Below are positions 9,259 to 28,186 of a DNA stretch of 64,000 nt, piece by piece (position 1 is the first letter of the stretch; every line of letters begins with the position of its first letter). Where the stretch lies: NCBI GenBank assembly GCA_028485475.2, contig CP144143.1, positions 2,170,001 to 2,234,000 on the forward strand, written 5' to 3'. The notes under the pieces were generated by a model. It was not told the DNA's origin, made no database searches, and worked only from the letters and a program-made list of their open reading frames with translations. The position numbers were made by a program, and so were the translations under genes. Origin of the DNA: Chitinophagaceae bacterium C216 (GTDB lineage Bacteria; Bacteroidota; Bacteroidia; Chitinophagales; Chitinophagaceae).

Positions 9259-9290
9259 CAAACTTAGTTACTAAATTTGCGATTTAGTAA
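9259..9290. promoter_or_regulatory. divergent promoter elements with inverted repeat
   Basis: On the plus strand TAAATTTG (9272-9279) and on the minus strand TAAGTTTG (9266-9259) both match the Bacteroidota -7 consensus TAnnTTTG. A perfect 9-bp inverted repeat, TTACTAAAT / ATTTAGTAA with a 5-base spacer (9268-9290), covers the plus-strand element. Upstream TTG elements at proper spacing are weak. The likely roles are promoters for the Erm leader (plus) and DUF1272 (minus) with a shared operator. Confidence 0.4.
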
Positions 9291-9291
9291 T

Positions 9292-9515
9292 GCAAATATA
9301 TACCTCTATGTTTTGTCTTTGTAGACTGTGGACTTCTATCTAAGTGATAGACAGTCCTGTATAAATCCAATTCTTTTTTGTGGCAAAAGTGCTTGTCACA
9401 CTGAGCTTTTTCGTTTTTTATGACGAAGCTGTGTGATGGCTACACTATCAGGGAATGCTGTCTATTCACTTCTCGCTGATCTGAATAACAAGTATTCACC
9501 TGTAAAATGTGGCCT
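9292..9515 (+). promoter_or_regulatory. structured leader, candidate Erm translational attenuator
   Basis: Between the promoter-like site and the Erm start lie two short frames and several hairpins. Frame 1 (9308-9343) encodes MFCLCRLWTSI; the hairpin GACTGT...CTATC-taagt-GATAG...ACAGTC overlaps it. Frame 2 (9420-9479) encodes 19 residues. Segment TATTCA (9463-9468), inside frame 2, can pair with TGAATA (9482-9487), which can instead pair with TATTCA (9493-9498), 18 bases before the Erm ATG. Such mutually exclusive pairing, with a leader frame over the first segment, is how inducible erm genes respond to macrolide-stalled ribosomes. The function here is inferred. Confidence 0.4.
9420..9479 (+). 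CDS. possible Erm leader peptide (19 aa)
   Basis: ATG at 9420 and TGA at 9477-9479 bound a 19-residue frame (MTKLCDGYTIRECCLFTSR). It overlaps the first of three mutually pairing segments and ends 36 bases before the Erm start codon, the position expected of an erm leader peptide. It does not contain a known arrest motif that I can point to, so the coding assignment rests on position only. Confidence 0.3.
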   Translation: MTKLCDGYTIRECCLFTSR

Positions 9516-11537: not shown

Positions 11538-12058
11538 CTATTCGTCTTTAGTGTTGATCAATTTTGCTAACTGACGAATAGCATGTTGGGATTCTTTCAT
11601 ATTGGTTAAAGCCATCCAAAGATGAAACATTTTAGGATACTCAAAATAGTTGACCGCGATTTGTTGTTGCTCCAGTTTTTTCTTGAGTTTTTGGGCGTCG
11701 GCAAAGAGCAAATCATGGGTACCGATAAATATGGAAATTTTTCCAAGACCTGAGAAATCTCCAAAGATAGGGCTCACCTTGTAGTCTATTGGATTTATTC
11801 CTGCAGCATATAAAGCTCCAGCCATTTTAAGACCTTTAATGCCTAATAGCTTGTCTTTTTTATCCAACTCGATAATATCCATATTACTTAATGTAATATC
11901 GAGCCAGGGGGAGTTTAAAATAATTTGTGAAGGTTGTGGCTTATTTTCATTCCTTAGTTTTTGGGCAAATCCCAGTGCTATGCCTCCACCGCAAGAATTG
12001 CCCATGAAAATAATATTCTCTGAAGGCGTTTCGTTAAGTATCGCATTGTAGAGTTCGT
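11538..12058 (-). pseudogene. alpha/beta hydrolase, 3' half (interrupted)
   Basis: This half encodes NELYNAILNETPSEN, the nucleophile elbow GNSCGGG, NSPWLDI, the acid region GTHDLLF and the His in KMFHLWM, then a normal stop: the C-terminal part of an HSL-type lipase/esterase. The N-terminal half with the oxyanion motif HGGGY lies at 27076-27543. Aligned to the family pattern 'YKD-x6-L-Y', the halves join exactly at YAYF|NELY. The bases from 12059 to about 12131 read in frame but belong to the inserted block, not to the hydrolase. Confidence 0.85.
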
Positions 12059-12062
12059 TTTG

Positions 12063-12173
12063 GGTATTGCCGAAGGCGGGGATTTTTAGCACAAAAGCAT
12101 AATCGAAGAACGAAAGTTGAACCTTGCACAAATGTTCAATCGAAACCGTTCAGCCCCGCTTTTGGCAATACCT
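12063..12173. repeat. imperfect 110-nt palindrome at left end of the block
   Basis: GGTATTGCCGAAGGCGGGG (12063-12081) and CCCCGCTTTTGGCAATACC (12155-12173) are inverted copies with 17 of 19 matches. The DNA between holds a smaller inverted pair (GTTGAAC / GTTCAAT). Its size and fold resemble single-strand-folding recombination sites, but the standard integron core sequences are not present. Confidence 0.6.
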
Positions 12174-12174
12174 T

Positions 12175-12189
12175 GTTACCGGCTGGTGT
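12175..12189 (+). repeat. inverted repeat copy, left
   Basis: GTTACCGGCTGGTGT, which matches 14 of 15 bases with the reverse complement of 27058-27072. It lies about 115 bases inside the left edge of the inserted block, just after the palindrome. Confidence 0.6.
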
Positions 12190-12331
12190 TCTGTCTGCCA
12201 GTCTTTGCAAACCATTGTCAGTACTGAGTTTTTGTTTCATTGTCAGGTCGGTTGTGTGTTGCATTTTGCGTTTTTTACTTTTTTAAAGGATCGGGAATTT
12301 TTTAAAACAATCTTGTATTGAGTCGGTTTTG

Positions 12332-12383
12332 CAAGCTCTTTGCCAAAGCGTTGGCTAGTGTGGCTTTGGCAATATGCTTGCAA
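12332..12383. repeat. imperfect palindrome before the multicopper oxidase end
   Basis: GCAAGCTCTTTGCCAAAGC and GCTTTGGCAATATGCTTGC are inverted with two mismatches around a short TTGGC-rich centre. It follows the stop of the minus-strand oxidase gene and could also act as a transcription end, though no long T run follows. Confidence 0.45.
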
Positions 12384-12393
12384 TTGCAGAACT

Positions 12394-14639
12394 TTAATAA
12401 TTCAATGATAGTCCAACTCCAAAGCCCATATCGCTATCGTAATGAGTACGAATACCCATATTTTTGTTGATGATGTATTTTAGTTCTCCCATATATTCCT
12501 TGTCGGTATTGACCATAAAGCCTGCTCGAACCCTTTTAGAAATCGGAATGTCTTCACGCATCAAAGACAATCTGACAATTCCATCGTGATAGATCTCTGC
12601 CTGAAAGTTAACGAGCATTGGCAATGTATATACAAAACCCAAACTGATAGCGGCACGTTGGTCTTTGCCATTCTTTTGTCCAAAAAGATTAGTTTCGTGT
12701 TCGTCCATTCCAATTTTACGGTAACGCCAATCGAAACCTACAAAAGGCATAAACCACTGCATTTTATCTACGTATCTGCCTAAATGCGTTTCTACTTCAT
12801 AACCTTTTTGTGCAGAATATCCCAAACGCCACTCCGAGGTAAGATTCCAACGTGCATTTTGCACTCTGAACATACCGTCGTTTCCATTGGTAGCGAAGTC
12901 ATTTTCTAAAAATACATACGCATATTACTTTCTCTTTTAAGCATTCTGTATGCTTTTTCTTTGTTAGGAAGTAGTGGGTTGTGTAATTCTCCTACACTAA
13001 AAACCCGATTCATACCTGCCATCATATGATAAAGAATGTGACAATGAAAAAACCAATCACCTTCGGTATTGGCTGCAAACTCTATCACGTTGGTTTCCAT
13101 CGGCATTATGTCTAAGACATTTTTCAGAGGGGAATAGTCGCCGTGTTCATTCAACACGCGGAAATCAAACCCGTGTAAGTGCATCGGATGTCGCATCATC
13201 GAGTTGTTGTATAAGGTGATACGGAGGATTTCACCCTTTTTTACCAATATCTTATCCGTTTCAGAAAACACTTTATTGTCCATACTCCACACATATCTGT
13301 TCATATTTCCAGTGAGTTCGAAGCGCATTTCACGAACTGGTAAATCTTTTGAAAGCGTAGTCTTTTCTGTCGCTTTCAGCATTCCATAATTGAGTGTTAC
13401 TAGTTCAGTAGTGTTGGCCGTATGGTTTTCGTGTTGCTGATGATTTTCTGCGTTTGAGTGTCCGTGATGATGATCGTTTTGCCCAGAAACTTCAGGGTAC
13501 ATCACGGTATTCATATCCATTTGTTGCAGGCTCATTTCCATTCCCATATCGTGCATATCGCCGTTCATCTTCATCATATCATTCATCATTTTCATTCCTT
13601 CAAAGTACTTGAGCTTTGGCAACGGGGTAGTGAGTTGTTTTACTCCTGAACCTACATAGAGCGAAGCAGAACCCGAACGGTCTTCGGCAGTTGCCAAGAG
13701 TTCATAAGAAACACCTTCTTCAGGAATGGTGACGACAATGTCGTAGGTTTCTGAGACAGCCACAATGAGCCGATCTACTTCTACAGGCTCTACATCGTTT
13801 CCGTCGTTTGCTACAACTGTAATTTTACCACCCGCATAGGTGAGCCAAAAGTAAGTCGAGGCACCTGCATTAGATATTTTTAACCTCACTTTGTCTCCTG
13901 CTTTGAACTGTGATAGTTGGCTTTCGGGCACTCCGTTTATGAGGAATTTATCATAATAAACATCGCTCACATCCATTGCCAGCATCCGTTTCCACTCATT
14001 GGTGAGTTTGGTCTTGAAATGTCCTTCACGAATGGCTTCGGCATAACTTTGTGTAGCATCCTTTTTTATAGCAAACCAATCGCTGGCATTGCTTAACATT
14101 CTTTGGATGTTTTCAGGTTTATAATCCGTCCATTCGCTGATAATTACTGGAATGGTAGGCAGATCATCTATGCCTTTTCTGAAAGAGACATCATTTTCTT
14201 TTTTATTGAAAATGAGTGATCCATACATTCCAATTTGTTCTTGGTATCCGCTGTGGCTGTGGTACCAGTGGGTTCCGTTTTGTATCACCGGGAATCGGTA
14301 CACGTGTGTGGTGTTTGGTTCTATCGGCATTTGTGTTAGAAGCGGAACGCCATCTTCCTGGTTGGGCAACTATACCCCGTGCCAATGTAGTGATGTACTT
14401 TCTTTTAGCTGATTGTGCACCACAATTTCAGCAGTATCGCCCTCTGTAAAAGTGAGCGTTGGCATCGGAATTTGACCGTTTACTGCAATGGCTCTTTTTT
14501 CTTTTCCGGCATAGTTTACCAATGTGTCTTTTACATATAAATCGTATCGCACTACTTTTTGTGCGAAAAGAGAAGTTGTTGCCAAGAGCATCAATGTTAT
14601 CGGCAACAGTTTTTTTGAGAAAATATTTTGTATATCCAT
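12394..14639 (-). pseudogene. multicopper oxidase with C-terminal outer-membrane-type domain, broken
   Basis: Across three segments the DNA encodes one protein of about 747 residues. It has a signal peptide (KKLLPITLMLLATTSLFAQ), copper motifs HWHG, HWYHSHSG, HPMHLHGFDF and HCHILYHMMAGM, a Met/His-rich stretch near residues 340-400, then a beta-rich domain ending VGLSLNY as in CopB-like outer-membrane proteins. Normal role: periplasmic Cu(I) oxidation. It is broken by an in-frame TAG at 14370-14372, just after HWHGV, and by a one-base loss in an A/T run (12908-12912), after which the C-terminal domain continues in another frame. Every copper ligand motif is intact. Confidence 0.8.
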
Positions 14640-14649
14640 TTCAGAATTT

Positions 14650-16800
14650 TCATTTATTAATTTTTAAAAGGCTTGCATTTATGGCAACCACAATAGTACT
14701 TATGCTCATCAAAACCGCACCCATTGCAGGGCTTAAAACGAAACTCGGATAAAGCACGCCTGCTGCCAGTGGTATGGCTATCATATTGTAACCAACTGCC
14801 CAAAGCAGGTTTTGAACCATTTTTTTATATGTCCGTTTTCCAAAGTCAATCATCTTTACCACATCTCTCGGGTCACTGTTTACTAGGATGATATCAGCTG
14901 TTTCCGCAGCTACATCTGTTCCTGATCCCACAGCGATTCCGACATTAGCCTGTGCCAATGCAGGTGCATCATTGACCCCATCTCCAGTCATAGCAACAAT
15001 TTCACCTTTCGCTTGATATTGCTTGACTTTTTCCTGCTTTTCGTGAGGCAGTACGTTGGCGATATAGTCGTCCATTCCCAATTGTTCAGAAACTGCTTTT
15101 GCAATTTTTTCATTGTCGCCTGTAAGCAGAATGGATTTGATACTCATCTTTCTTAACTCATCAATGGCTTCTTGCGCCCCCTCACGAATGCTGTCTGCCA
15201 ACGTGATAATACCGATAACTTCATTATCAATAAAAACATAGTTGACTGTTTCAATGCTTTGATTGATTTCTTTGGGCGTTTCAGGCTCTGTAAGATTATT
15301 TTGTTTGAAATAATTAGGTCCTGCTGCTACTATTTCCTTTCCGTTTACTAATGCTTTGACACCTATGCCTGCCATATAGCTGAAATTCTCCGACTTCCAT
15401 AGTTCAAGGTTTCTTTCTGCCAGCATTTTCAAAATACCTTTTGCAATGTGGTGTTCGGAATATTGCTGAACGGCTGCTGCATATTGTATCATTTCATCAG
15501 CAGAATATTTATCAGTAAGTGGGATCACTTTTTCTACTGCGTGAGAGCCTTTGGTAAGCGTTCCTGTCTTGTCGAAAATAATCGTGGATAGTTTTCGGGT
15601 AGTTTCAAATGCGGTACGATTGCGAATGAGCAAACCATTGGTAGCCGAAAGCGTTGTAGAAATGGCAACCACCAACGGAATAGCCACACCCAAAGCGTGG
15701 GGACAAGCCGTAACCATTACTGTAACCATTCTTTCCAATGCAAACGCAATATCTCCGCTACTGCTGAGCCAATAAATAAAAGTGATTACGCCTATTGCAA
15801 TAGCAAGAAAGGTGAGCCATTTAGCTACTTTATCGGCAAGGTTTTGCGTATTCGATTTTGCTGCCTGTGCATCCTGAACCAAGTTGATTACCTTATTGAG
15901 GTAACTGTCTTTGCCTACTCCTGTTGCCGTAACACTTAACGCACCTTCGCCATTGATAGAACCTGCAATTACTTTTCCGTCTTTTTCTTTTTTTACCGGA
16001 ACACTTTCGCCCGTAAGCATACTTTCGTTTACATAAGAAACGCCATCTACAATCGTTCCATCGGCAGGAATTTTTTCACCGGGTTTGATGATAATGGTTT
16101 CACCGTTTTTTAGGTCTTCGAGTTTTATTTTTATGGTTTCACCATTTCGCTCCACCGTAACATCGTTTGGTAAAAGTGCCACCAATGACTGCAATGCTTT
16201 TGAAGCTGCCATAGTAGAACGCATTTCTAACCAATGTCCCAAAAGCATAATCACGATAAGAGTTGCCAGTTCCCAAAAGAAGTCCATTCCCGGCAGACCA
16301 AAAACGACGGCAACCGAATAGATGTAAGCGACTGAAATAGCGATTGCCACCAATGTCATCATCCCAATAGCTTTGGCTTTTATCTCGCCTACCATTCCTT
16401 TCAGAAATGGCATTCCACCATAGATGTAAATAAAAGTTCCCAGCGCCAATAGCACATATTTATCTCCAGGAAAAGCAACCGTGAAACCAAACCATTCCTG
16501 TATCATTTGCGATAAGAGCAAAATGGGAACGGTAATGATTAAACTTACCCAAAAACGTTTGAGGAAATCGTGGGTATGATGTCCTTCGTGTTTATCGTAA
16601 CCACTATCGGAATGATGATGGTTATGTTCGTCGCTATGTGTGGAATGTTCTTTATGGTCGTGATGATGATGGTGTCCGTGATGGCTGTGAGCTTCATTTT
16701 TTGCTCCACTCATTGGAACTAAATCCATTCCGCAAAGTGGACATTTCCCTGGCTCATCTTTAAGTATCTGGGGGTGCATTGGGCATGTGTATTTTTTCAT
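14650..16800 (-). CDS. copB: CopB-type copper/silver P1B ATPase
   Basis: A 716-residue P-type ATPase exporting copper or silver from the cytoplasm. It starts with a heavy-metal-binding YHS-like motif (YTCPMHPQI...GKCPLCGMDLVP, residues 4-29) and a His-rich tract (residues 38-76). The membrane metal site is CPH (366-368), the signature of the CopB (P1B-3) group, not CPC of CopA. DKTGT (Asp410) is the phosphorylated site, TGES lies at 264-267 and GDGVNDAP near 620. Start at 16800. It ends 10 bases before the oxidase gene on the same strand. A 7-bp inverted repeat (ATTTGCG / CGCAAAT, 16834-16859) lies upstream. Confidence 0.9.
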   Translation of the reverse strand: MKKYTCPMHPQILKDEPGKCPLCGMDLVPMSGAKNEAHSHHGHHHHHDHKEHSTHSDEHNHHHSDSGYDKHEGHHTHDFLKRFWVSLIITVPILLLSQMIQEWFGFTVAFPGDKYVLLALGTFIYIYGGMPFLKGMVGEIKAKAIGMMTLVAIAISVAYIYSVAVVFGLPGMDFFWELATLIVIMLLGHWLEMRSTMAASKALQSLVALLPNDVTVERNGETIKIKLEDLKNGETIIIKPGEKIPADGTIVDGVSYVNESMLTGESVPVKKEKDGKVIAGSINGEGALSVTATGVGKDSYLNKVINLVQDAQAAKSNTQNLADKVAKWLTFLAIAIGVITFIYWLSSSGDIAFALERMVTVMVTACPHALGVAIPLVVAISTTLSATNGLLIRNRTAFETTRKLSTIIFDKTGTLTKGSHAVEKVIPLTDKYSADEMIQYAAAVQQYSEHHIAKGILKMLAERNLELWKSENFSYMAGIGVKALVNGKEIVAAGPNYFKQNNLTEPETPKEINQSIETVNYVFIDNEVIGIITLADSIREGAQEAIDELRKMSIKSILLTGDNEKIAKAVSEQLGMDDYIANVLPHEKQEKVKQYQAKGEIVAMTGDGVNDAPALAQANVGIAVGSGTDVAAETADIILVNSDPRDVVKMIDFGKRTYKKMVQNLLWAVGYNMIAIPLAAGVLYPSFVLSPAMGAVLMSISTIVVAINASLLKINK

Positions 16801-16893
16801 AATAACAGTTTTAAGAATATTTCACAATATTTAATTTGCGATGATTTTAACACGCAAATCGAAGTTTTAACCTGTTCAGCTTATACGCTAAAT

Positions 16894-17373
16894 TTATTCA
16901 TTATCCATTAACGAATTAAAGTAATCGACTAATAATTTCTTATCTTCATTGCTCAAACGAGCACCCCCATGCATCCATAAATAAGAGGTTAATGGCATTT
17001 TATCTTGTTCAATTTGCTTGGTAATTTGCGTAAATTTTGAATTTAGTCTCCGGGAACCATAAGAAGGCAATTCATCAAAATTCAACTTTTCCTTTCCATC
17101 TTTTACATGCTTATCCATTAGCCATGCCATGGGTTGAATCTCACTGTACCAAGGATACTTCGTATTATTACTATGGCAATCGTAACAAGAAACAGCCAAA
17201 ATTGCATTGACCTGTTCACTAACTTGAAAGGTATCAACAAAAGCCTTTCCTGCAGGAGAGTCTGATGTATTCTTTTGAGGTCTTACTAGCTGAATTAATA
17301 ATAAAACAGCTAGCAAAACCATAAAGACTAGTTTTGATTTAGAAATTGCATTTTTTTTTCTTATGCCTTCCAT
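16894..17373 (-). CDS. haem-binding domain protein (PF14376 type)
   Basis: A 159-residue protein with one N-terminal membrane anchor (KLVFMVLLAVLLLIQLV) and a c-type haem motif CYDCH in SCYDCHSNNTKYPWYS, the hallmark of the Haem_bd family in Bacteroidota. The haem domain should face the periplasm. Its place between the efflux genes and the CopB-like gene suggests electron transfer for copper oxidation, but this is inferred from position. Confidence 0.8.
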   Translation of the reverse strand: MEGIRKKNAISKSKLVFMVLLAVLLLIQLVRPQKNTSDSPAGKAFVDTFQVSEQVNAILAVSCYDCHSNNTKYPWYSEIQPMAWLMDKHVKDGKEKLNFDELPSYGSRRLNSKFTQITKQIEQDKMPLTSYLWMHGGARLSNEDKKLLVDYFNSLMDNE

Positions 17374-17399
17374 AACGAACTAATTTAAATGATTAATGG

Positions 17400-18980
17400 T
17401 TAACGGGCATACAGACAACAGCTCGGCAGTCCGTCATAAACCGCCTTGGGAGCCTTGTCCAGCTCTGTATCGTGACCAACATTAGCAATAGCTTTGCTTA
17501 TGGCACTTTTTGAGGTTACTTTTGAATCGAAATCCAAATGGATAACTTTGGCATTAACATCCCAGTTTGCGGAAATCACCCCCTTGACACTTTTCGCCGC
17601 TTTCTCAATCCGGCTTTTGCACATTTCACAATTTCCTGATACTTTCAACATATCATGGGTCTTATTGACATTGGTTTGAGCATCGCCATGCTGATGTCCG
17701 GCAGCCGATGCTGCGCCATCGTTATTCATCATACTGATTTTACCTTCCAGCTGGGCACTTGCATCAACGGTGAAAGCTCCCTTGGTCACGATTTCCTCGC
17801 CATTTTCCAGCCCCGACATAACAACATATTGGTCGCCCAATGAGGGGCCCAAGACGATCTCCCGAAGTTTAAAAGCAGGCGTGGATGTATTTGGCTGTTT
17901 TACGTAAACTATGGAGCGCTTCCCTGTCCATAAAACCGCCGACTTGGGAATGACTATCTCTTTACCCTTTCCTTTCAAAGGAGCTGAAGTACGTCCTGTA
18001 GCATACATCCCTGGTTTTAGATTACGGTCTATATTATCGGCTTCAACCCTAACCTTTGCAGTTCTCGAGCTAGCATCAATGATTGGATTAATAAAGGCTA
18101 TCCGCCCTTTATATACTTTTCCGGGCACACTCTGTAAAGTATATTCCAATTGATCCCCAACTTTCAAAAAAGGTAAGTCGGTTTCATAAGCATCAAAAAT
18201 CACCCATAACTTTGAAAGGTTTGAAATAGTGTATAATACGCTTCCTTGGTTGATATAATCTCCTTGGTTTACATTTTTTGATGTGACAACACCGCTTGTA
18301 TTTGCGTATATATTTACATAAGGTGAAACGCTGTTAGATGCAAGGATTTCACTTATCTGATTTTCTGACACCTTCCATAAACGCAGCTTTTCTTTTGCAG
18401 CATCAAGCAATACCGGTTGGATATCCTGCAATTTTGCGGCTTCCAATAATTCCTGTTGTGCGGTCAGCAGATCAGGCGAATAAATCTTGGCTATCAGTTG
18501 ACCTTCTTTCACGGATTCGCCAGTAAAAGTTACGTAGAGGTTTTCAATACGTCCATTAACATGCGATGTTTGGGATTGTTGTAAACGCTCATCTACCTGA
18601 ACGGTTCCGTATAGCTGCACATCTTTGACAGCATCTTGATGACCGACAACCGAAGTCTGTATATTCGCTAATGCGATGGCCTCTTCGGACATCAGGATAG
18701 CGTCATCGTCAATCACGTCATCACCTCCTCCGGAAGATTTCAATGGGATTAAATCCATTGCACATAAAGGGCATTTACCCGGTTTGTCCATTCTGATCTG
18801 GGGGTGCATAGAGCATGTCCAAACGGTTTCACCTTCCTCGGTCACTTCCATTTCAAGATCATGACTGTGATCATGGGACGAATTCCCGCCAAATATCGCC
18901 CAGCCAAGCAGTAGTCCGGACAATAATATAACCCCGTAAGTTACCGCCTTATTTCTAAAAATATTTTTCAGTTTATTCAT
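17400..18980 (-). CDS. cusB: CusB-like periplasmic adaptor with N-terminal HMBD and C-terminal HMA domain
   Basis: A 526-residue RND adaptor. After a membrane anchor (residues 13-30) come a His patch, a heavy-metal-binding motif WTCSMHPQI...GKCPLCAMDLIP (53-79), and the barrel-sandwich and beta-barrel domains of CusB. An extra C-terminal HMA domain (about 440-510) carries GNCEMCK and ends in LPSCCLYAR. It should link the CusA-like pump to the TolC-like channel and pass Cu(I)/Ag(I). The gene follows the channel gene by 25 bases. The HMA-plus-CC tail is not part of E. coli CusB. Confidence 0.9.
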   Translation of the reverse strand: MNKLKNIFRNKAVTYGVILLSGLLLGWAIFGGNSSHDHSHDLEMEVTEEGETVWTCSMHPQIRMDKPGKCPLCAMDLIPLKSSGGGDDVIDDDAILMSEEAIALANIQTSVVGHQDAVKDVQLYGTVQVDERLQQSQTSHVNGRIENLYVTFTGESVKEGQLIAKIYSPDLLTAQQELLEAAKLQDIQPVLLDAAKEKLRLWKVSENQISEILASNSVSPYVNIYANTSGVVTSKNVNQGDYINQGSVLYTISNLSKLWVIFDAYETDLPFLKVGDQLEYTLQSVPGKVYKGRIAFINPIIDASSRTAKVRVEADNIDRNLKPGMYATGRTSAPLKGKGKEIVIPKSAVLWTGKRSIVYVKQPNTSTPAFKLREIVLGPSLGDQYVVMSGLENGEEIVTKGAFTVDASAQLEGKISMMNNDGAASAAGHQHGDAQTNVNKTHDMLKVSGNCEMCKSRIEKAAKSVKGVISANWDVNAKVIHLDFDSKVTSKSAISKAIANVGHDTELDKAPKAVYDGLPSCCLYAR

Positions 18981-19005
18981 TGCTAAGAATTTTAAAATAA
19001 TTGCA

Positions 19006-20472
19006 TTATTTATGGTCTGCTAATAATTTTTTAATTGACACAACCATCGTATTATAGTTTGCAAGGGCCTCAGCTTTCCTAAGCTGATAATCCAATAATT
19101 GCCGCTGCACCTGAATAACGTTGGTCAAGTCACTTTTGCCTGTAACGAACTCTTTTACGATCAGGTTATATGTCGTTTGGGCGAGCGTAGTTTGTTTTTC
19201 GTACAGCTCGATGGCACGCTGAGCATCATCCAGTTGGCTTTTGAGACTGTAAAACTCGCTTTTCAAAGTGTTGAAGGTGTTTTTAAAGTTCTCTTCGCTT
19301 GATTTTCGCCATAGCCTGCTTTCGTTTTGCTGGGCATTGTATTTTTTACGGAAGAGCGGCAGGCTCACTGAAACCATGGGCATGACCATATCCTTGCCGT
19401 TCATCCCGTCCATTGCCAGCATTGAATTATTCGTCTTTCCCACAACCATGTATTCCACACCGATACCAATCATAGGGTAACTCATTTTCCGATCCATTTC
19501 CGCTTTTGCCTTAAATGCCAATCCTTCTTCGGTAATCATTTCAAGCATGGGGTTGTTTGTCTCAATAACCCTCAGCGCTTCTTCCTCGCTATATAAAAAA
19601 TTCAGCTTGTGGATCTCTTGTCCCAACATTACTTCTTCATTGGCTTCCCTGTTCAGCAATGCATTGAATTTCGCTTTTTCGGCTTTGATCTGGGCATGTA
19701 AACTTTCAATGTTATTTTCAATTTCAGCGATTTCCAATTGGATACGAAGCACCTCTGACATACCCGATCCGGAGCCACCTTCCATTGCTCCCATGCCACC
19801 ACCGGACGGCATACTCATATTCTGATTAGTAGCAGGAGCTGAATTGCCTCCTCCCATACTCATCCCTCCCATACCCGATGGAGTGCTAGAGCTGGTTGTT
19901 GAGGAAGGCGTATTGCTGCTTACAACGGGTGCTGCACTTGATTGTGAGGTGCTTGAGGGCGCAGAGAATTTCCGTATTGCCAATTGTTCCAATTGCTCCA
20001 AGAGTGCTTTGTTTTCTTGGTTATTCCTCAATTGTTCATTCAATTTTTGCATCGTGTACCACTGTGTGCTGACCTGAAGGATCAGATTATTTATGGCTTC
20101 CCGATACTGTTGATATTGCATATTGGCCATATGTGTAGCCTCTGTGCGAGCTGCTTTTCTCGTGCCAAACCATGGAAACATTTGCATCAAGCTCACATTT
20201 CCAATAGAACGCCCTCCTATAATTTCCATAGGCATCGTATATGCTTCCAAGGACAATTCGGGGTCTTGGTATGCTCCGGCTTGCGGAATTTTTTCAAGGT
20301 ATGCCTCATGCGCATACTTTTGTGATTTTACACCCGGATTATTTTCGATTGCGACTTGTATATAATAGGACAGCGAATCGGTGGGGTAGTCTTGGGCTAA
20401 AGCTTGCGAAAAAATGCTTAAGCTTGTTAATACAGCCACGGTTATATACCGATTTATCTTATTCGTTTTCAT
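19006..20472 (-). CDS. cusC: TolC-family outer-membrane channel (CusC-like)
   Basis: A 488-residue TolC-type protein with a signal peptide (TVAVLTSLSIFSQALAQ) and the repeated helical-hairpin pattern of outer-membrane efflux channels. Residues 170-239 are a low-complexity insert of Ser, Thr, Gly, Met and Pro (for example GMGGMSMGGGN and NMSMPSGGGMGAM), placed between long helices. Met-rich stretches bind Cu(I) in other proteins, so this may be a metal-binding loop. The gene overlaps the end of the CusA-like gene by 14 bases, which implies translational coupling. Confidence 0.88.
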   Translation of the reverse strand: MKTNKINRYITVAVLTSLSIFSQALAQDYPTDSLSYYIQVAIENNPGVKSQKYAHEAYLEKIPQAGAYQDPELSLEAYTMPMEIIGGRSIGNVSLMQMFPWFGTRKAARTEATHMANMQYQQYREAINNLILQVSTQWYTMQKLNEQLRNNQENKALLEQLEQLAIRKFSAPSSTSQSSAAPVVSSNTPSSTTSSSTPSGMGGMSMGGGNSAPATNQNMSMPSGGGMGAMEGGSGSGMSEVLRIQLEIAEIENNIESLHAQIKAEKAKFNALLNREANEEVMLGQEIHKLNFLYSEEEALRVIETNNPMLEMITEEGLAFKAKAEMDRKMSYPMIGIGVEYMVVGKTNNSMLAMDGMNGKDMVMPMVSVSLPLFRKKYNAQQNESRLWRKSSEENFKNTFNTLKSEFYSLKSQLDDAQRAIELYEKQTTLAQTTYNLIVKEFVTGKSDLTNVIQVQRQLLDYQLRKAEALANYNTMVVSIKKLLADHK

Positions 20473-23400
20473 TCGCTATATTTTTATTATTTTTCCTATT
20501 TTCTTTTTTAGTGGCAGATTCTCTCCACCAGCATTGGAATACCGGAACCACAAACATGGTCATGGATTGGATTAGCATGCCGCCGAAAGTCGGGATGGCC
20601 ATTGGTACCATGATTTCCGCACCTTTACCGGTAGAGGTCAGGACAGGCAGTAAGGCGATCAGTGCTGTAGCAGTGGTCATCGCTGCCGGTCTGACACGCT
20701 TTAAGCCTGCGTATATGACTGCTTCCCGTATTTCATCTTTTGTTCTGGGGTTCCGTGCTTCAAATGTATCGTGGATGTATGTTCCCATTAATACACCATC
20801 ACTCGTCGCCAGTCCGAACAGGGCGATAAATCCTACCCAAACGGCAATGCTGAGATTGATGCTGTGCATCTGGAACAGATCCCTCATATTTGTCCCTCCG
20901 ACAGAGAAGTCCATAAACCAGGGCTGCCCGTAAAGCCATAATAAAATAAAGCCACCTGCAAGTGCTACAAAAACACCGGAAAAATGAATTAACGATGCTG
21001 TAACCGTTCGGAACTGAAAGTAGAGAATTACTAAAATGGCTAACAAACTCAGTGGTATAATAAGCATTAGCCTTTTTGCGGCACGCTCTTGTTGTTCATA
21101 ATTGCCAGCAAATTTATAAGTCACTCCGTTAGGCAAACTTAGTTCTCCGGATGCGATTTTTTCCTGTAAGATTTGATCGGCTTCACGGACGACTTCAACT
21201 TCAGCTTTACCGCTTATTTTGTCAAAGATGACATAGCCCAACAAAAACGTATTTTCACTTTGGATCATCTGTGCACCCTTGGCGTACTCGATGTCTACTA
21301 CATCCCCCAATGGGATCTGTGCGCCAGTGGCTGTAGGGATGATTATTTTTTTTAAAGCTTCAGGATCATCTCTCAACTCACGCGGATAGCGCAGGCGAAC
21401 CGGGAACCGTTCCCGACCTTCGACCGTGCTGGTCAATGTCATACCGCCTACGGCTGCACTGATTACTTCCTGAAGCTCGGCAACGGTAATACCGTATCTG
21501 GCCATTCTATTCCGGTTCAGATGGATTTCGATATAAGGTGCACCTACTGCACGGTCGTAAAAGACCGTAGATGGCATGATCGATGGTATGTCTTTCAAGG
21601 CAGTTTCCAATGCTTTTCCGCCCGCTTCTATCGATTCAAGGTCAGGCCCGAATACTTTTAAACCCATGGGAGCTCTCATACCGGTAGAAAGCATGACCAG
21701 CCTTGCTTCAATGGGTTGCAGTTTTGGTGCGGAAGTCAGGCCCGGCAAATGCGAAACATTGACAATCTCCTGCCAAATGTCGTCCGCCGTTTTTATCTCG
21801 GGACGCCATTGGCGGAAGAACTTGCCGCCTTTATCTATGATAAGGCTATCTCGTGGAATTTGTCTGAATCCTTGATCTATATGGTAGGTATCTCCGTTAA
21901 TCAGTTCAAAATGCCCGTCACTATTGGTTTTAAACCGCTCTCTATGACCGTCTTCGTCCAAAATATACTCAGGTATATAATTGATGGTATTTTCAAACAT
22001 TTGGGTAGGTGCCGGGTCAAGTGCAGAATTCACACGGCCCCATTTTCCTACGATAAGTTCGACTTCCGGTATGTTTTGAATACGTTTATCAAGTGTTCTG
22101 ATCAATTGCAGGTTTTGTTCAATCCCAGTATGCGGCATACTGGTGGGCATCAAAAGGAAAGAACCTTCATTGAGGCTTGGCATAAATTCCTCCCCGATAC
22201 CGGGAAATGTTTCGGTGGATTTTTGCCAGAAGGCAGTCTCCCGAAATGACTTCCAACCTATCTTTTCGAAGCCATTTGCAACAAAACCAAAACTCTTCTC
22301 TACGCCCATCCATGCTAACATTCCGAATAATAAAGTAATGATAGGGATGGCCATGAATTTCCACCGGTTGGAAAGTGACCAACGCAGGATCTGTTCATAA
22401 TAGATCACCAATGCCCATAACATTCCCAGGATGGAACCAATGGCAAAGAATACGAACACAAAGTTAAGTGTGGTGCTTGCCTGTGTGCCGAGTGGCAGCC
22501 ACTCAACCGTCAGGTAATACATCGCTACAAAAAGTGTGATAGCTACATTAACGTAGTTGGCAATTTTTTCTCCTTTCCATCTTGGTGTAAACAGGTTGTT
22601 GACTCCGATCAAAGTCAATGCGAACACCACAAAAATACCTGAATAGATCCAAAGGCCGATACCGGCTACCACCAAAACATAGTTGGCTAACCGACGTATT
22701 TTATTTCCATTTATCCGGATCGAAAAAACATAATACGCCAGTGTGGGCAATAAGATAATTCCCACTACAAACGTTGATACCAAGGCAAAGGTTTTGGTAT
22801 AAGCCAATGGACCGAACAGTTTTCCTTCCTGTGCTTCCATCATGAATACAGGCAAGAAACTGATGATAGTGGTGAGCATTGCCGTTGACAACGCTCCGGA
22901 AACTTCTGAAACCGCCCGGGAAATCAAGTTTATAAAGGCTTTTCCCCGACTATCAATTCCCTTGGCTTTTTCTTCATCCATATGCCGCAGGATACCTTCG
23001 ATAAAGACGATTCCGACATCTACCATGACCCCAATGGCAATTGCGATTCCCGAAAGAGCCACAATATTTGCCTCGACTCCCATTTGTTTCATGATGATAA
23101 AGGTCGCCAGCACACCAATGGGCAGAATACTGGATATGAGAATGGATGCTCGCAGATTGACGACCAGAACGATGACAACGATAATACAAATCAGTATTTC
23201 GTGTGCCAGCGCATTTTCTAACGTTCCGATCGTTTCCTGAATTAAACCGGAACGATCGTAAAAGGGTACAACGGTAATTTTTGAGATGGTACCATCCGCC
23301 AACGTTTTTTGAGGGAAGCCTGCCTCCATTTCTTTAATCTTTTCCTTGACATTGTTGATGACAGCCATTGGGTTTGCGCCATGTCGGGCAACCACTACGC

Positions 23401-24310
23401 CGCCGACAGCTTCAACGCCTTCCTTATCCAATCCGCCACGCCGCGTGGAAGGCCCTAAATTGACAAAACCAACATCCTTAATTTTTACAGGTACATTGTT
23501 TCGAACGGTGACCACGGCATCTTCCAAATCTTTTACACTCTTTATATACCCCAATCCACGCACCAGATATTCCGCCTTGTTTATTTCGATTGTCTCTGCA
23601 CCGATATCCAGGTTGCTGTTTTGGATAGCCGACATGATATCCATTACGGATACATTGTATGCGCGCATCGCATCTGGATTGATATCGACTTGGTATTCTT
23701 TTACGAAACCTCCGATGGAAGCTACTTCGGAAACCCCCTCCAATGCTGCCAAATTATATTTTACATAGAAATCCTGCACAGTACGCAGTTCATCCGGATC
23801 CCAGCCACCGGCAGGTTTTCCGGTCTCTGGATTTCGTCCTTCCAGTGTGTACCAGAATACCTGACCCAAAGCAGTGGCATCCGGTCCGAGTGTAGGCGTT
23901 ACGCCGGATGGTAATGTGCCGGCAGGCAATGAATTCAGTTTTTCCAGAATACGGGAACGGCTCCAATAAAACTCTACATCTTCCTCAAAAATTACATAGA
24001 GGAAGGACATTCCGAACATCGAACTGCTCCGGATCGTTTTTACGCCGGGGATGCCCAGTAAGGCGGTCGTGAGTGGATAGGTAATCTGTTCCTGTATATC
24101 TTTGGGAGACCTTCCCATCCATTCCGTAGCCACGATTTGCTGATTCTCTCCAATGTTTGGGATCGCATCGACTGGAACAGGATCACTTGGCAAAACCCCC
24201 TGATGCCAATTGAAGGGTGCTGTAATCAGCCCCCATATCAGGACAACCAGAAGTAATAAGAGTGTTATTACTCTGTTTTCCAAAAAATACTTGATTATTT
24301 TATTAAGCAT
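20459..24310 (-). CDS. cusA: CusA-type heavy-metal RND pump
   Basis: A 1283-residue inner-membrane proton-driven pump of the HME-RND family. Family markers are DAIPNIGENQQIV, GRSPKDIQEQITYPL, FGMSFLYVIFEED, GPDATALGQVFWYTLEG, the TM4 segment GVMVDVGIVFIEGIL with its proton-relay Asp, and GEEFMPSLNEGSFLLMP. At about 230 residues longer than E. coli CusA, it has extra hydrophobic helices near 535-650, a feature of many Bacteroidota members. The block has no other pump; with the adaptor and channel genes downstream it forms a complete tripartite system for Cu(I)/Ag(I). Confidence 0.92.
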   Translation of the reverse strand: MLNKIIKYFLENRVITLLLLLVVLIWGLITAPFNWHQGVLPSDPVPVDAIPNIGENQQIVATEWMGRSPKDIQEQITYPLTTALLGIPGVKTIRSSSMFGMSFLYVIFEEDVEFYWSRSRILEKLNSLPAGTLPSGVTPTLGPDATALGQVFWYTLEGRNPETGKPAGGWDPDELRTVQDFYVKYNLAALEGVSEVASIGGFVKEYQVDINPDAMRAYNVSVMDIMSAIQNSNLDIGAETIEINKAEYLVRGLGYIKSVKDLEDAVVTVRNNVPVKIKDVGFVNLGPSTRRGGLDKEGVEAVGGVVVARHGANPMAVINNVKEKIKEMEAGFPQKTLADGTISKITVVPFYDRSGLIQETIGTLENALAHEILICIIVVIVLVVNLRASILISSILPIGVLATFIIMKQMGVEANIVALSGIAIAIGVMVDVGIVFIEGILRHMDEEKAKGIDSRGKAFINLISRAVSEVSGALSTAMLTTIISFLPVFMMEAQEGKLFGPLAYTKTFALVSTFVVGIILLPTLAYYVFSIRINGNKIRRLANYVLVVAGIGLWIYSGIFVVFALTLIGVNNLFTPRWKGEKIANYVNVAITLFVAMYYLTVEWLPLGTQASTTLNFVFVFFAIGSILGMLWALVIYYEQILRWSLSNRWKFMAIPIITLLFGMLAWMGVEKSFGFVANGFEKIGWKSFRETAFWQKSTETFPGIGEEFMPSLNEGSFLLMPTSMPHTGIEQNLQLIRTLDKRIQNIPEVELIVGKWGRVNSALDPAPTQMFENTINYIPEYILDEDGHRERFKTNSDGHFELINGDTYHIDQGFRQIPRDSLIIDKGGKFFRQWRPEIKTADDIWQEIVNVSHLPGLTSAPKLQPIEARLVMLSTGMRAPMGLKVFGPDLESIEAGGKALETALKDIPSIMPSTVFYDRAVGAPYIEIHLNRNRMARYGITVAELQEVISAAVGGMTLTSTVEGRERFPVRLRYPRELRDDPEALKKIIIPTATGAQIPLGDVVDIEYAKGAQMIQSENTFLLGYVIFDKISGKAEVEVVREADQILQEKIASGELSLPNGVTYKFAGNYEQQERAAKRLMLIIPLSLLAILVILYFQFRTVTASLIHFSGVFVALAGGFILLWLYGQPWFMDFSVGGTNMRDLFQMHSINLSIAVWVGFIALFGLATSDGVLMGTYIHDTFEARNPRTKDEIREAVIYAGLKRVRPAAMTTATALIALLPVLTSTGKGAEIMVPMAIPTFGGMLIQSMTMFVVPVFQCWWRESATKKENRKNNKNIANENE

Positions 24311-24403
24311 AACATATACATTGTTTACATTTTAATATCAGATACGAGCTTACAGAAGTTGGCCCGTATCCGATATTTGAATTTCAAATCTTAATCAGAG
24401 TTT

Positions 24404-24991
24404 TTACTTCAGTTCTTCCTGAACTTCACCACATGTTAGCATATCTTCACCATAGTAAGGGTTTTTGATTTCCTTGCTATCACTCAGCCAGTATGCGCCC
24501 TTGTTGTCATCATACATCGGGCAAAAGACTTTATATAAAGGTTTGTCTGTGCCAAATGTCTTTGCTATATCGTAAAAATCCTTACTCAACATCACTAAAT
24601 GCTCTCGTTGATGAGCAATATTGCCCACGTTGTCTGAGATATGTTCTGCATGTTCTTTAATTTCCGCAGCAATATCCTCGTATGTAGTTTTGTCTTCCGC
24701 ACTGAATCCATCTGATTTGATTTTTGAAAGGGCTTCTAGCATTCCTTTGGATGCATTAGCGGCTTCTTTATCATTATCTGACGACAATGCAAATGTGAGA
24801 TGTTGGTAGTGAGAAAACAATTCAGAAAAATTGCCCTGTTCAGGGTTTTCTGTACTGTTATCTGAAGGTATTGTTTCAGTTACAGGAGCAGAAGTTTGCT
24901 CTGTACTTGCGGCTTTTTTCTCTGTATTTCCGTTACATGCTGTTAAAGCCAGTATTGAAGAGGCGATTAAGCCTAAAAATAAATGTTTCAT
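24404..24991 (-). CDS. DUF3347 lipoprotein
   Basis: About 195 residues with a lipoprotein signal (lipobox LTAC) and a helical DUF3347 domain ending in the family pattern FCPMYDDNKGAYWLSDSKEIKNPYYGEDMLTCGEV. The Cys, Met and His residues in FCPM and MLTCG look like metal ligands. DUF3347 proteins usually accompany copper efflux genes and are thought to be periplasmic copper chaperones. Start chosen at Met 24991; a Met two codons earlier is equally possible. It lies 94 bases upstream of the pump gene. Confidence 0.8.
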   Translation of the reverse strand: MKHLFLGLIASSILALTACNGNTEKKAASTEQTSAPVTETIPSDNSTENPEQGNFSELFSHYQHLTFALSSDNDKEAANASKGMLEALSKIKSDGFSAEDKTTYEDIAAEIKEHAEHISDNVGNIAHQREHLVMLSKDFYDIAKTFGTDKPLYKVFCPMYDDNKGAYWLSDSKEIKNPYYGEDMLTCGEVQEELK

Positions 24992-25015
24992 TGTCATGAT
25001 TTCTGTTTTTAATAA

Positions 25016-25441
25016 TTAAAATTGATTTATGTAATTTGTATATGTAGTATTATTTTCAAAATATGATACTTCCCCGTGGTTGCCCGTAATTGCTATTATA
25101 GCAGTCGCTTTATCTATCTGCTTTTTGGAAAATGGATCTATGGCAACGCGTGTAGAAGGATCTTTTGGAATGCGTTCTTTACACATTTGGCAACATCCGT
25201 AATATATTTTTCCTTCAAAATTTACCTCAAATTGTTTTTTGCCCATGTATTCATTGTTGACCATGCATACCTCTTCCGACGGAACTACATCGCCCATTTC
25301 AAAGGCATTGTGGTCACGGGTATTTGTATTTGAGCTTTTTGAAGTATATGTATTGTCTTACACCTTTAGTGTAGGGTTATTGTTGCATGAACTAAATATG
25401 ACTACAATAGAAGTAACGATCCCAATCAATAGACATCTCAT
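25016..25441 (-). pseudogene. metal-binding (YHS/TRASH-like) lipoprotein with premature TAA
   Basis: From ATG 25441 the frame encodes a lipoprotein signal (IVTSIVVIFSSCNNN), then a TAA at 25358-25360 (codon 28). It continues in the same frame with DHNAFEMGDVVPSEEVCMVNNEYMG, FEVNFEGKIYYGCCQMCKERI and a normal end. The EVCMVN...YYGCCQMCK pattern is a Cys-rich metal site of the TRASH/YHS kind. One base change restores the frame. Start and lipobox lie before the stop, so only an unlipidated fragment could be made by re-initiation. Confidence 0.7.
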
Positions 25442-25450
25442 AATGGCTGA

Positions 25451-26299
25451 CTAATTTAATTTTTCAACTGTACTACCACACGTTAGCATTTGTGAACCGT
25501 AATAAGGGTTTTTAATCGCATTTTCTTTGCTCAACCAATTTGCTCCTTTGCCTTTGTTCGCCATTGGGCAATGTTGATAATAAACAGGCGTTTCCTGATT
25601 TGAAACTTTTATCAGTTCGTACATATTTTTTGAAAGGCTCATAAAATGGTCTCGCTGATGTGCCACATCTTTGGTTTCAGCAATGTGTCCTGCATCAAAG
25701 GCAAGGTCTTTCATTACTTTCATCCAAACCGTATGTTCCTCGTTTGATAGTTTATTCATTTGCACAGCGTCAAGAGCGGTTAGCAATTCTTTTGCTTTAG
25801 TGGAAGTGGTGTTTGCGTCAGATTTTACCAATGCATCTTTTACCGAAAAATAGTTGTTAAAAACAGATTTCAGTTGGTTTACTTCCTGCATTTCTGTAGA
25901 TGCGGTATGACTGGAATGGTCGTGTGTTTCCGTTTTCGATTCTGCTTTTGCAACAGGTTTGTTCACACGTTCGTACTGGCAACATTCAGGTAATTTTGCA
26001 TATACATCATCAGGGGCAAGAAATTGGTCGCTGTCGTAACCTGCCAACGCAATGCGTTTCAGGATTTCATCCTGATTTGTTTTTGTACTGTCATAAGTTA
26101 GGACAGCCGTTTTAGTGTCCTTGTTCCAATCTACTTGGGCTACTTTTTTTATGTTCCCTGCTTTTTCGATAGTGCTTTTGCACATACCGCAGTTTCCGTA
26201 AATCTTTACGGTTTCTGTTTTGGCGTTTTTAATTTGAGCGTTACACGCTGTGAATGATAGCAATAGTGTAATTGCCACCAATATTTTTATTGATTTCAT
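25451..26299 (-). CDS. HMA domain fused to DUF3347
   Basis: A 282-residue secreted or lipid-anchored protein: signal with lipobox-like FTACNA, then an HMA copper-chaperone domain (YGNCGMCKSTIEKA, about residues 33-95) that ends LPECCQYER, a His-rich linker (THDHSSHTAS) and a C-terminal DUF3347 domain (YYQHCPMANKGKGANWLSKE, MLTCGS). It probably binds Cu(I) in the periplasm and passes it to the Cus system. The HMA + CC tail matches that at the end of the CusB-like adaptor in this block. The gene is 10 bases upstream of the broken lipoprotein gene. Confidence 0.82.
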   Translation of the reverse strand: MKSIKILVAITLLLSFTACNAQIKNAKTETVKIYGNCGMCKSTIEKAGNIKKVAQVDWNKDTKTAVLTYDSTKTNQDEILKRIALAGYDSDQFLAPDDVYAKLPECCQYERVNKPVAKAESKTETHDHSSHTASTEMQEVNQLKSVFNNYFSVKDALVKSDANTTSTKAKELLTALDAVQMNKLSNEEHTVWMKVMKDLAFDAGHIAETKDVAHQRDHFMSLSKNMYELIKVSNQETPVYYQHCPMANKGKGANWLSKENAIKNPYYGSQMLTCGSTVEKLN

Positions 26300-26391
26300 C
26301 TTTTTAAAATTAAATGTTTAACGAATAATAGAATTTGAAAGCAAGAAAAATGCTTTCAATAGGACACAGCTATGGCTGACAAGGTAAGAAA

Positions 26392-26763
26392 TTAGCTTAT
26401 TTTAGGCGGTTGCCAAATGGAGTGATAACCCGAAGAAAAGTATGGGTCTGAATAAAGAAAGAATTGTTTTTGAGCAACAACTAATAAATTGTATTTGAGT
26501 TCACGTGTAGAAGGAATAAAGCTAAAACTAACTGTAGGGCAATGGCAAGATGAATGTCCGCATTTGCCCCCACAATCGTCATTGTCTTTTTGGTTATGCG
26601 AACTTTTATTTTTGCAACAGTCATTTTTGTCTGTCTGTGAAGTTTTTTTGTCGCAACAAGATTTTTCGGTTTGTGTGTGAGATTTACTACAAGCATAAGT
26701 CAGTGTTGGTGTCAAAAAGAAACCAAGCAATGCTATGAGTAATATGTAAATCTGTTTTGTCAT
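26392..26763 (-). CDS. Cys/His/Lys-rich secreted protein
   Basis: A 123-residue protein with a signal peptide (MTKQIYILLIALLGFFLTPTLTYA) and a core of Cys pairs (KSCCDKK, DCCKNK, DCGGKCGHSSCHC) rich in Lys and Asp, then a short hydrophobic tail. The Cys content suggests periplasmic metal binding. I know no family name. It is the first gene of the block behind a consensus promoter, so it probably starts the copper transcript. Confidence 0.65.
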   Translation of the reverse strand: MTKQIYILLIALLGFFLTPTLTYACSKSHTQTEKSCCDKKTSQTDKNDCCKNKSSHNQKDNDDCGGKCGHSSCHCPTVSFSFIPSTRELKYNLLVVAQKQFFLYSDPYFSSGYHSIWQPPKIS

Positions 26764-26777
26764 TTATTATCTATCTG

Positions 26778-26805
26778 CAAAGGTATAAAAAATTTTCGGT
26801 GGCAA
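26778..26805 (-). promoter_or_regulatory. Bacteroidota promoter for the copper block
   Basis: On the minus strand TTG (26805-26803), a 17-base spacer and TACCTTTG (26785-26778) match the TTG-N17-23-TAnnTTTG consensus. The element is 15 bases from the start of the Cys-rich gene, giving a very short leader. Minus-strand genes follow without long gaps to 12394, so it may drive the whole block. No metal-regulator gene is present in the block. Confidence 0.65.
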
Positions 26806-27057
26806 AAAATGGCTCTTTTTTTTGTGAAGGGTTGGCTTGTGTGTTGGGGAAAACCAAATGTGCTATTTGTGCGGTTGGCCAAAAATTGTTTTTAAAAAAT
26901 TTGCGTTGGCAAAAAAAAATGGGGTAGGTCAGCGTGTCGGGTTTCTCGCTGTCCGTTAGTTTTAACGTCTATATATTGGTCGCTTTTCAAAATGGTTTGC
27001 CCTAGTGTGAATGTTCAAATTTTGGTCGTCCGTTTAATTTTAGCACTGTCGTCTGTT

Positions 27058-27072
27058 ACACTAGCCGGTAAC
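27058..27072 (-). repeat. inverted repeat copy, right
   Basis: GTTACCGGCTAGTGT on the minus strand, reading into the block. It pairs with 12175-12189 (14 of 15). It starts exactly where the hydrolase coding sequence stops matching its family. Confidence 0.6.
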
Positions 27073-27075
27073 TTT

Positions 27076-27543
27076 AAAATAGGCGTACACATCTTTATAG
27101 TTAGAAAATGGAGCTAAAGGATAATCAGGTACTATTATCGAACAATTAGTCTTTTCTAGTAGTTCATGTACAAGATCCCAATCATATTTTGTTAGGTTGG
27201 ATATATACCCACCTCCATGTATGTATAGGATTACTTTAGATGAACTACTTTGTTTAGGTGTAAACGTCCAAACTTTTCTCTTATTGATGTTCCGTATTTC
27301 AGTATTAAAGTCAGATATCAAATCACTTGTAGGTTCTGTAGGTTGGGAGGGGTATCTGTTGCTCTTAATGCGCTTCTCAATATCCTTTTTCTTCCCGACC
27401 ACTGTCATCAATGACTGTAACAACTGAGATTTAAAACTTGGAGAGGAAGAATGTACATAGGTTACCGATGTAGCTGTTTGTGATTGCCCGATCATTGTTT
27501 TTATAATTAACAAGGTGAATAGTGATATTGAACGTATGCTCAT
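27076..27543 (-). pseudogene. alpha/beta hydrolase, 5' half (interrupted)
   Basis: This half starts at MSIRSISLF (27543) with a signal peptide and holds VILYIHGGGYIS (oxyanion motif) and VPDYPLAP, ending at YKDVYAYF. Beyond this the frame runs only into KVTG and a TAG in the inserted DNA. The Ser, Asp and His of the active site lie in the other half at 11538-12058. The two together would encode an HSL-type esterase of about 330 residues. A Crp/Fnr gene (now frameshifted) lies 50 bases upstream on the same strand. Confidence 0.85.
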
Positions 27544-27593: not shown

Positions 27594-28186
27594 TTAAGAA
27601 ATTCGTCTTCTTATCCTACTTAATGCTTGAGGGGTGATACCAATATAAGAAGCGATATACTGTAAAGGGATTTTTTTAATTAATTCGGGTTGTTCTGTGA
27701 GGAGGTTTAAATAACGCTCTTCAGCAGTATCATTTAAAAAAGAGATTTCACGTTTTACTTTTTCTAAAAATAGTTTTTCCGTTGCGAGTCGACCTATCAG
27801 ATTGCCTCTTTCAGTTTCACGATATAGGGTTTGCACATCCTCATAGGAAAGTCTCCACAATTTTGTTGGAGTGATGGTTTCGATGTGGTATACCGAGGGT
27901 TGTCTGGTGAGGAAAGAGTCATAAGCACCAATAAAGTCATTAGCAAAAGTAAGCTCAAAAGTGATTTCTTTATTTTCCTTGGGTATATAGTATCGAACAA
28001 TACCTTCTTCAATAAAAGAAACGTATCGCTCTACTTGACCTTTTTTCAGAATCAAGGTCTTTTTAGGGAATTCCTGTTGAATAAATTTTGAAGCTATTCT
28101 ATGCCAGTCCTGCTCAGTAAAGTCTGCATACTTATTTCGAAAAAATGCTTAATCTGTTCCACCGTTGAGATGATTTTTACTTGCAA
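27594..28186 (-). pseudogene. Crp/Fnr family regulator with 5' frameshift
   Basis: The main frame encodes RNKYADFTEQDW, a beta-roll (LILKKGQVERYVSFIEEGIVRYY), and a helix-turn-helix IPLQYIASYIGITPQALSRIRRR. It has no ATG or GTG and opens right after a TAA. The missing start sits in another frame (VKIISTVEQIKHFF from TTG 28186); joining them needs one more T in the A/T run at 28140-28145. The gene is thus frameshifted or a homopolymer length is misread. A TTG at 28055 would give only a 153-residue truncated form. It was probably the regulator of the hydrolase gene downstream. Confidence 0.6.

Follow-up and report, generated by a model that had tools for sequence, protein, structure and literature searches.

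A copper-resistance block inside an esterase gene of a Chitinophagaceae bacterium is probably a very large cassette of an integron-like system of Bacteroidota

How might some 15 kb of copper-resistance genes have come to lie, precisely joined, in the middle of an esterase gene? The question is posed by a stretch of 64,000 nucleotides (the window) from Chitinophagaceae bacterium C216, the host (contig CP144143.1, positions 2,170,001 to 2,234,000), in which two halves of a hydrolase gene, both on the minus strand, are separated by about 15 kb. We give a probability of about 0.88 to the reading that this block is a very large cassette of a Bacteroidota integron-like system, integrated in trans and outside any array. 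Judged by sequence, the system behind the block is of the integron type, in a form not described before: the recombination site, the complementary ends, the rule followed in arrays, the empty site, the arrays adjoined by an integrase, and a smaller copper cassette that shares the terminal genes of the block are all seen in the sequence, while we infer a circular single-stranded intermediate, the identity of the enzyme and the choice of an off-array target.

The interrupted gene encodes an HSL-type alpha/beta hydrolase. Its C-terminal part (PF07859) lies at 11538..12056 and its N-terminal part, recognised by protein comparison with intact relatives, at 27073..27543, both on the minus strand. 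An intact protein of 328 residues is encoded in Parapedobacter composti (L005:10010-10996), the single relative from the contig scan with the N-terminal piece. The N-terminal part is 74% identical to this protein and the C-terminal part 75% identical to its residues 157-328; the two are consecutive stretches of one protein and join at residues 156 and 157. In both species a gene for a Crp-type regulator lies upstream (27594..28055, minus strand, in the window; L005:9386-9955 in P. composti). At the DNA level, the alignment of the N-terminal half runs as far as the junction and contains a few small gaps; that of the C-terminal half is gap-free and starts about 39 bases beyond the junction. Since the halves are parts of one intact hydrolase, an uninterrupted (empty) site exists, and the split esterase proposed in the original prediction is confirmed. 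The search for uninterrupted relatives that it recommended also found eight more distant ones (38-46% identity). The length spanning the junction is unchanged in seven of these eight, in agreement with the predicted precise entry into the gene, and the eighth (L159) has one residue fewer, slightly downstream of the junction. With the P. composti protein as query, a match at E<=1e-60 was found in 9 of 396 genomes of the order, host included. A search of the genus (17 genomes including the host) with the N-terminal half gave, beyond the host's own half, weak matches only, one in the host and one in congener G008 (31-32% identity, E about 1e-4).

Compared with P. composti and with array junctions, the insert measures 15,016 bp and occupies 12057..27072 of the minus strand in a C|GTT register, or 12056-27071 in a G|TT register, the junction being ambiguous by up to 3 bp. 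The C|GTT register is the one seen in arrays and makes a duplication unnecessary, since one G is common to both ends; the 2-bp duplication suggested earlier is thus one possible register among others, and the predicted extent of about 15 kb stands, with its limits corrected within these few bases. The 12 larger open reading frames (ORFs) of the block all lie on the minus strand and are of copper or heavy-metal types or unnamed. No transposase, integrase or relaxase family and no mobility domain was found in these 12, smaller ORFs having been left out, which bears out the view of the block as metal-resistance cargo that was moved in trans or has lost its enzyme. Transposon ends were rejected as an explanation because no terminal repeat occurs at the junctions among the repeats listed for 8000-31000 (20 direct families out of 60 or more, and 25 of the 197 inverted pairs); a weak inverted pair (29 nt, 72%) among them lies near both block ends, at 12279-12307 and 26890-26918.

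What the original prediction, right about cargo entry and a trans-acting or lost enzyme, had missed is a recombination site and a pair of complementary ends, and it is these that make the mechanism look like that of an integron cassette. At the 3' end of the block (12051..12185, minus strand) lies an attC-like site of about 135 bp, with an imperfect stem, a long loop and an outer arm, R'', at 12175-12185; it scores 116 bits with filters off. Elsewhere in the host genome, three places are similar to the segment 12060-12200 at E<1e-4, and a query of 12040-12240 matched 24 plasmid records at E<=0.1. A covariance model of nine aligned sites, three of them from the host (R1), gave 17 matches in the host at E<=0.01; across the genus, 12 of the 17 genomes, host included, had a match. 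With filters off, no second site was found inside the block (other matches in 5000-33000 reach at most 18.5 bits), for which reason a composite of several cassettes was rejected; a match at 12063-12173 is the terminal site read from the opposite strand. One congener, G006, has 51 R1 matches, mostly within a single array. The 45 sites used from this array lie on a single strand, 138-3,710 bp apart, weaker matches on the opposite strand falling on the same palindromic sites, and in 31 of its 44 cassettes the longest ORF is on the strand of the site.

The stem of the site covaries strongly. In an alignment of 65 sequences with 16 pairs, 91.6% of cells are paired, compared with 62% after shuffling and 36-44% when the pairing is slid; the covariation score is 0.634 (0.156 shuffled, 0.05-0.10 slid), and double changes number 276 versus 101. 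A second model built from this alignment (R2) detected sites at E<=1e-6 in 241 of 394 genomes of the family (76 of 101 genera) and in 176 of 375 genomes of the phylum (97 of 165 genera), host included in both; these counts are understated, since 8 candidates were scored per genome with strict filters, and some of the scanned genomes had contributed training sites. Rfam recognised no family in the window at the gathering score. At E<=10, it gave four matches in L134 and L084, three off any site and one (a microRNA model, E 4.5) overlapping a site by chance. The host's own sites form clusters at G000:C1:2604457-2652723 and 2744861-2754502 (L029, L088, L090, L091), surrounding ORFs that, judged by eye, resemble metal-efflux genes and those of type I restriction-modification. 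Two sites also follow the intact hydrolase of P. composti (L005:11590-11725 and 12450-12584); the hydrolase may thus be carried on a cassette in that species as well.

The two ends of the block are related to each other. Its first 11 bases (R', 27062..27072, minus strand) are complementary to R'' at 10 of 11 positions, with the mismatch at base 11, the same position as throughout the G006 array. There, nearly every cassette starts with GTT followed by bases reverse-complementary to R'' of the site at its own far end. Neighbouring pairs score a mean of 9.60 of 11, against 6.55 for all pairs, and none of 20,000 permutations is as high; of 44 such pairs, 43 could be scored, 42 of them at 9-10 and one at 4. 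Five further stretches (a host cluster, a Riemerella resistance plasmid, G396, G202 and P. composti) gave 29 scorable pairs with a mean of 8.59 against 6.07, again unequalled in 20,000 permutations, and 6 of the 29 fall below 8 (4 to 7). This scoring omitted a weak host site (L029:4643-4836) and, in G396, four short sites that lie between 12342 and 9952 of L163, so two of the low-scoring pairs are not true neighbours; the rest may reflect lost or unseen sites. When the R'' of the block is set against the 44 cassette starts of G006, none reaches 10 and two reach 9. Counted together with its complement, the sequence GTTACCGGC is present at three places in the window, and two of these are the block ends. 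Because these ends are mutually complementary, the block would be one closed unit, and a circle formed from it would restore its own site. The third copy of GTTACCGGC is at 53860, far from the block.

Which enzyme might act on such sites is suggested by the G006 array, at the end of which a tyrosine recombinase is encoded, in two frames and divergent from the array. Of the 394 family genomes, 158 have homologues of it at E<=1e-15, a count that takes in distant ones; the host has no match at this threshold to the query, a 253-residue N-terminal piece. With larger flanks, 14 of 17 loci picked among the best matches have sites and 3 have none; the integrase gene is divergent at seven of the 14, co-oriented with an array downstream at five, and otherwise arranged at two. 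This integrase and IntI both end in an SPLD motif, and at its N-terminus it carries about 90 additional residues that belong to no Pfam family. Four array integrases score 185.5-206.7 bits with TIGR02249 (cut-off 265; IntI1 control 507.6), and one from Chryseobacterium just passes the XerA model NF040815 (221.5 against a cut-off of 220), a model with the NCBI title 'tyrosine recombinase/integron integrase'. A plasmid of Chryseobacterium sp. SNU WT5 (L168:16013-30962) carries a platform of its own, in which the integrase precedes six same-strand sites at E<=1e-9 and one weak site; two of six neighbouring pairs are scorable, at 9 and 5 of 11. A recombinase gene near tet(X3) in Acinetobacter, called TnpF in one record, encodes a protein 47% identical to residues 128-361 of the array integrase. 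On a tet(X3) plasmid of Acinetobacter indicus (L171:5052-7244), this gene lies directly upstream of tet(X3), which is followed by a weak site (24 bits). Resembling a truncated array integrase in this position, it looks like the remnant of a platform.

Units bounded in the same way are shared between plasmids. Units with tet(X), estT and OXA-type genes are common to Riemerella and Sphingobacterium plasmids, and tet(X) also occurs in a Myroides plasmid (L032, L033 and L034 were compared); the units are 92.6-99.7% identical in differing neighbourhoods. Similarity breaks at TAACG, which is C|GTT in the sense of the gene, at both tet(X) boundaries and at one boundary each of the estT and OXA units; no simple break of this kind was seen at the second estT boundary or at one of aadS. 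The breakpoints fall within a shared C-GTT, which makes the exact crossover base ambiguous. The Riemerella plasmid pRCAD0416RA-1 (L033) has attC-like sites 3' of tet(X), estT, OXA-type, lnu(I) and aadS genes, and this array of resistance cassettes bears no such label in the annotation table examined.

The original prediction had also called for a search for the block at other places. An identical 15-kb block was not found elsewhere, but shorter versions with the same terminal genes were. In the G396 array, genes for DUF6660, DUF3347, an oxidase and the last gene of the block lie between two sites (L163:17201-17333 and 13349-13483) as a 3.85-kb copper cassette whose ends are complementary at 9 of 11 positions; G396 also has a second, related copper set that lacks DUF6660 and runs up to a further site. 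A shorter version with the ATPase added is present on a Flavobacterium plasmid; its similarity begins at R'', and no attC-like site was found in it. With the same end genes and an efflux operon in the middle, the block in the window looks like a cassette that has grown from inside.

Taken together, a plausible course of events can be proposed. Cassettes of the system begin with GTTR and end in an attC-like site of about 135 bp whose outer arm complements the start, so that a free circle would restore its own recombination site. A tyrosine recombinase would then cut one folded strand, at C|GTT, to insert the cassette. In the present case, a copper-resistance circle of 15,016 bp may have been joined at a single G of the esterase gene, outside any array. 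The enzyme presumably acted in trans from another replicon or was later lost, because the host has its 17 sites and no detected array-linked integrase.

Other routes into the gene have to be weighed against this one. A classical IntI integrase from a mobile integron elsewhere could have acted in trans, treating the site as it would any attC and the esterase as a target of the attG type. The overall logic would be the same, with G at the probable crossover, and IntI1 is described in PMC12901181 as accepting a broad range of substrates. However, no IntI exceeds the TIGR02249 cut-off in the host, the arrays adjoin a different integrase family, and the core boxes are off consensus (RYYYAAC occurs in 2 of 65 sites; GTTRRRY in none of 44, all of which have GTTR), so that we regard this route as unlikely. 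It is very unlikely that a rolling-circle transposase (IS91 or ISCR-like) moved the block in trans with the hairpin as its origin end. The hairpin is indeed found at one block end only, and on Myroides plasmids pairs of an IS91 transposase and a tyrosine recombinase occur near such sites; yet no transposase family (Y2 included) was found in the 12 block proteins scanned, units break at C|GTT, and both ends of the block follow the R''/R' complementarity rule of the 45-site array. The length and multi-operon content of the block would fit a genomic island placed in the gene by a chance illegitimate or homologous recombination, or by an assembly join. The host genome is a single contig, the join is precise and keeps the coding length, and the site and complementary ends stand exactly at the two junctions, which leaves this account with a negligible probability.

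Several observations also weigh against an integron-like cassette as the explanation. A close empty site is known from one relative only, the target G precedes AA and not TT, and the block exceeds by a factor of about 3.4 the length of any other cassette that passed for end complementarity here (about 4.4 kb at most). Three neighbouring pairs in the host score 5, 7 and 5, and in G006, 81 of 1,893 pairs other than a cassette's own reach 10, by chance or through shared motifs. The integrase lacks the insert that defines IntI (32 residues against 75 in IntI4; the insert of IntI1 is absent too), and 10 of the 30 best integrase loci show a site in flanks of about 1.5 kb on each side. Across the 394 family genomes, site and integrase co-occur with an odds ratio of 11.3, computed without correction for relatedness (141 genomes have both, 17 the integrase only, 100 the site only and 136 neither), and the 100 with the site only are among 241 site-bearing genomes. 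Finally, the proposed recombination is deduced from comparison of sequences.

The cargo itself, all on the minus strand, opens with a 5' leader (26797..27058) that has similar counterparts in other family genomes. A 684-bp query matched 40 of 394 genomes, host included, with most of the listed matches within this interval. Upstream of the first gene, at 26778..26806, a promoter-like motif of the Bacteroidota type is predicted (TTTG-N17-TAnnTTTG). The strict motif is present in just 1 of 44 cassette leaders of G006, so a promoter-like leader is no general rule. The genes then encode a small cysteine-rich protein (26392..26763) homologous to a Flavobacterium-plasmid protein annotated DUF6660, an HMA-like plus DUF3347 protein (25451..26299), a small cysteine-containing protein of no family (25016..25297) and a DUF3347 protein (24404..24997). 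They are followed by a CusA-type RND metal efflux pump (PF00873, 20459..24310), a CusC/TolC-type outer membrane protein (PF02321, 19006..20472), a CusB-type adaptor with HMBD and HMA domains (17400..18980), a haem-binding domain protein (PF14376, 16894..17373) and a heavy-metal P-type ATPase (14650..16800). A multicopper oxidase (12906..14639) is present as two ORFs, with an in-frame stop at 14370-14372 that could be decay or a sequencing error, the two being indistinguishable from the sequence. The last cassette gene (12394..12873) has no Pfam family and is the terminal gene of the shorter versions as well. Beside the split hydrolase lie genes for an Erm-type methyltransferase (9507-10319; 240.6 bits, above the general Erm cut-off of 212 and below that for Erm(F)) and for a nucleotidyltransferase-like protein with a weak match only (10529-11275). 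Near these two genes, the site model matches a loop only, at 9233-9298.

If functional, the system would let genes for resistance, metal tolerance and restriction pass as units from one member of the Bacteroidota to another. The block suggests that cassettes far larger than single genes are possible, and integron-type recombination may be possible without the IntI insert. With less confidence than for the block itself, we lean towards a broader picture: a phylum-wide integron system of Bacteroidota, parallel to IntI, with an insert-less integrase and a self-complementary outer arm of about 10 bp, which would have built the tet(X)/estT/OXA-type/aadS arrays, would include gut defence arrays, and would move 15-kb multi-operon cassettes into ordinary genes.

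How does this system compare with those already known? Integrons have been detected in Bacteroidota, according to the portion of PMC8618304 that we used, and the corresponding portion of PMC9024848 names one complete integron in Bacteroidetes, that of Salinibacter ruber; a Bacteroidota system of the present kind was not found described, as judged by titles and the openings of abstracts. Like integrons (IntI, attI and attC gene cassettes, with CALIN elements), it has tandem same-strand arrays, a folded site 3' of each cassette, paired inner arms, AAC..GTT outer boxes, a probable crossover at or beside G, and an integrase at the array end. Unlike IntI, the array integrase has no IntI-specific insert and has the extra N-terminal stretch; according to PMC8138268, that insert is essential for integron function and not fully conserved in its subgroup. 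The strict core consensus of attC (RYYYAAC and GTTRRRY, as given by PMC12901181) differs from the boxes found here, and the complementary outer arm is about 10 bp. Insertion off the array has a likeness in attG sites, chromosomal and non-array, at which IntI joins cassettes (Loot et al. 2024, as cited in PMC12901181). Those insertions are described for IntI, whereas the copper block, a cassette of 15 kb, was probably handled by an integrase of another family.

A Parabacteroides distasonis plasmid (L173:7737-14400) carries an integrase 43.9% identical to the array-linked one, together with an array of genes annotated for immunity to type VI secretion systems. Gut Bacteroidales have recombinase-associated interbacterial defence (rAID) arrays, which Ross et al. 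are said to have described in 2019. Such arrays combine an array of immunity genes with a XerD-like recombinase. In the Parabacteroides array, the end rule is seen in all seven cassettes, at 8-9 of 9 bases (mean 8.4, with TAAC required), and 1 of 5,040 permutations, the real order included, reaches the observed sum. The related integrase and the same end rule are thus points of likeness. However, the Parabacteroides sites are about 50 bp long and are missed by model R2, the cassettes start with ATT and not GTT, and the block in the window carries copper genes and no immunity-gene array.

Another parallel is the homology-free insertion of aph(3')-IVb in Riemerella anatipestifer. As reported in the sections consulted of PMC13148043, a 2026 paper, a fragment made up of this gene with 27 bp of preceding and 140 bp of following sequence became integrated in the chromosome without homology; the 140-bp 3' region folds like attC, and the authors consider the mechanism yet to be elucidated. 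That unit has a single gene, and no integrase is named in those sections; like the copper block, it is a unit that entered a chromosome and has an attC-like 3' region. By analogy, a Bacteroidota integron-like system would offer an explanation for this integration and, if functional, would put forward a specific enzyme family and a specific site as candidates to account for the homology-free transformation of Riemerella.

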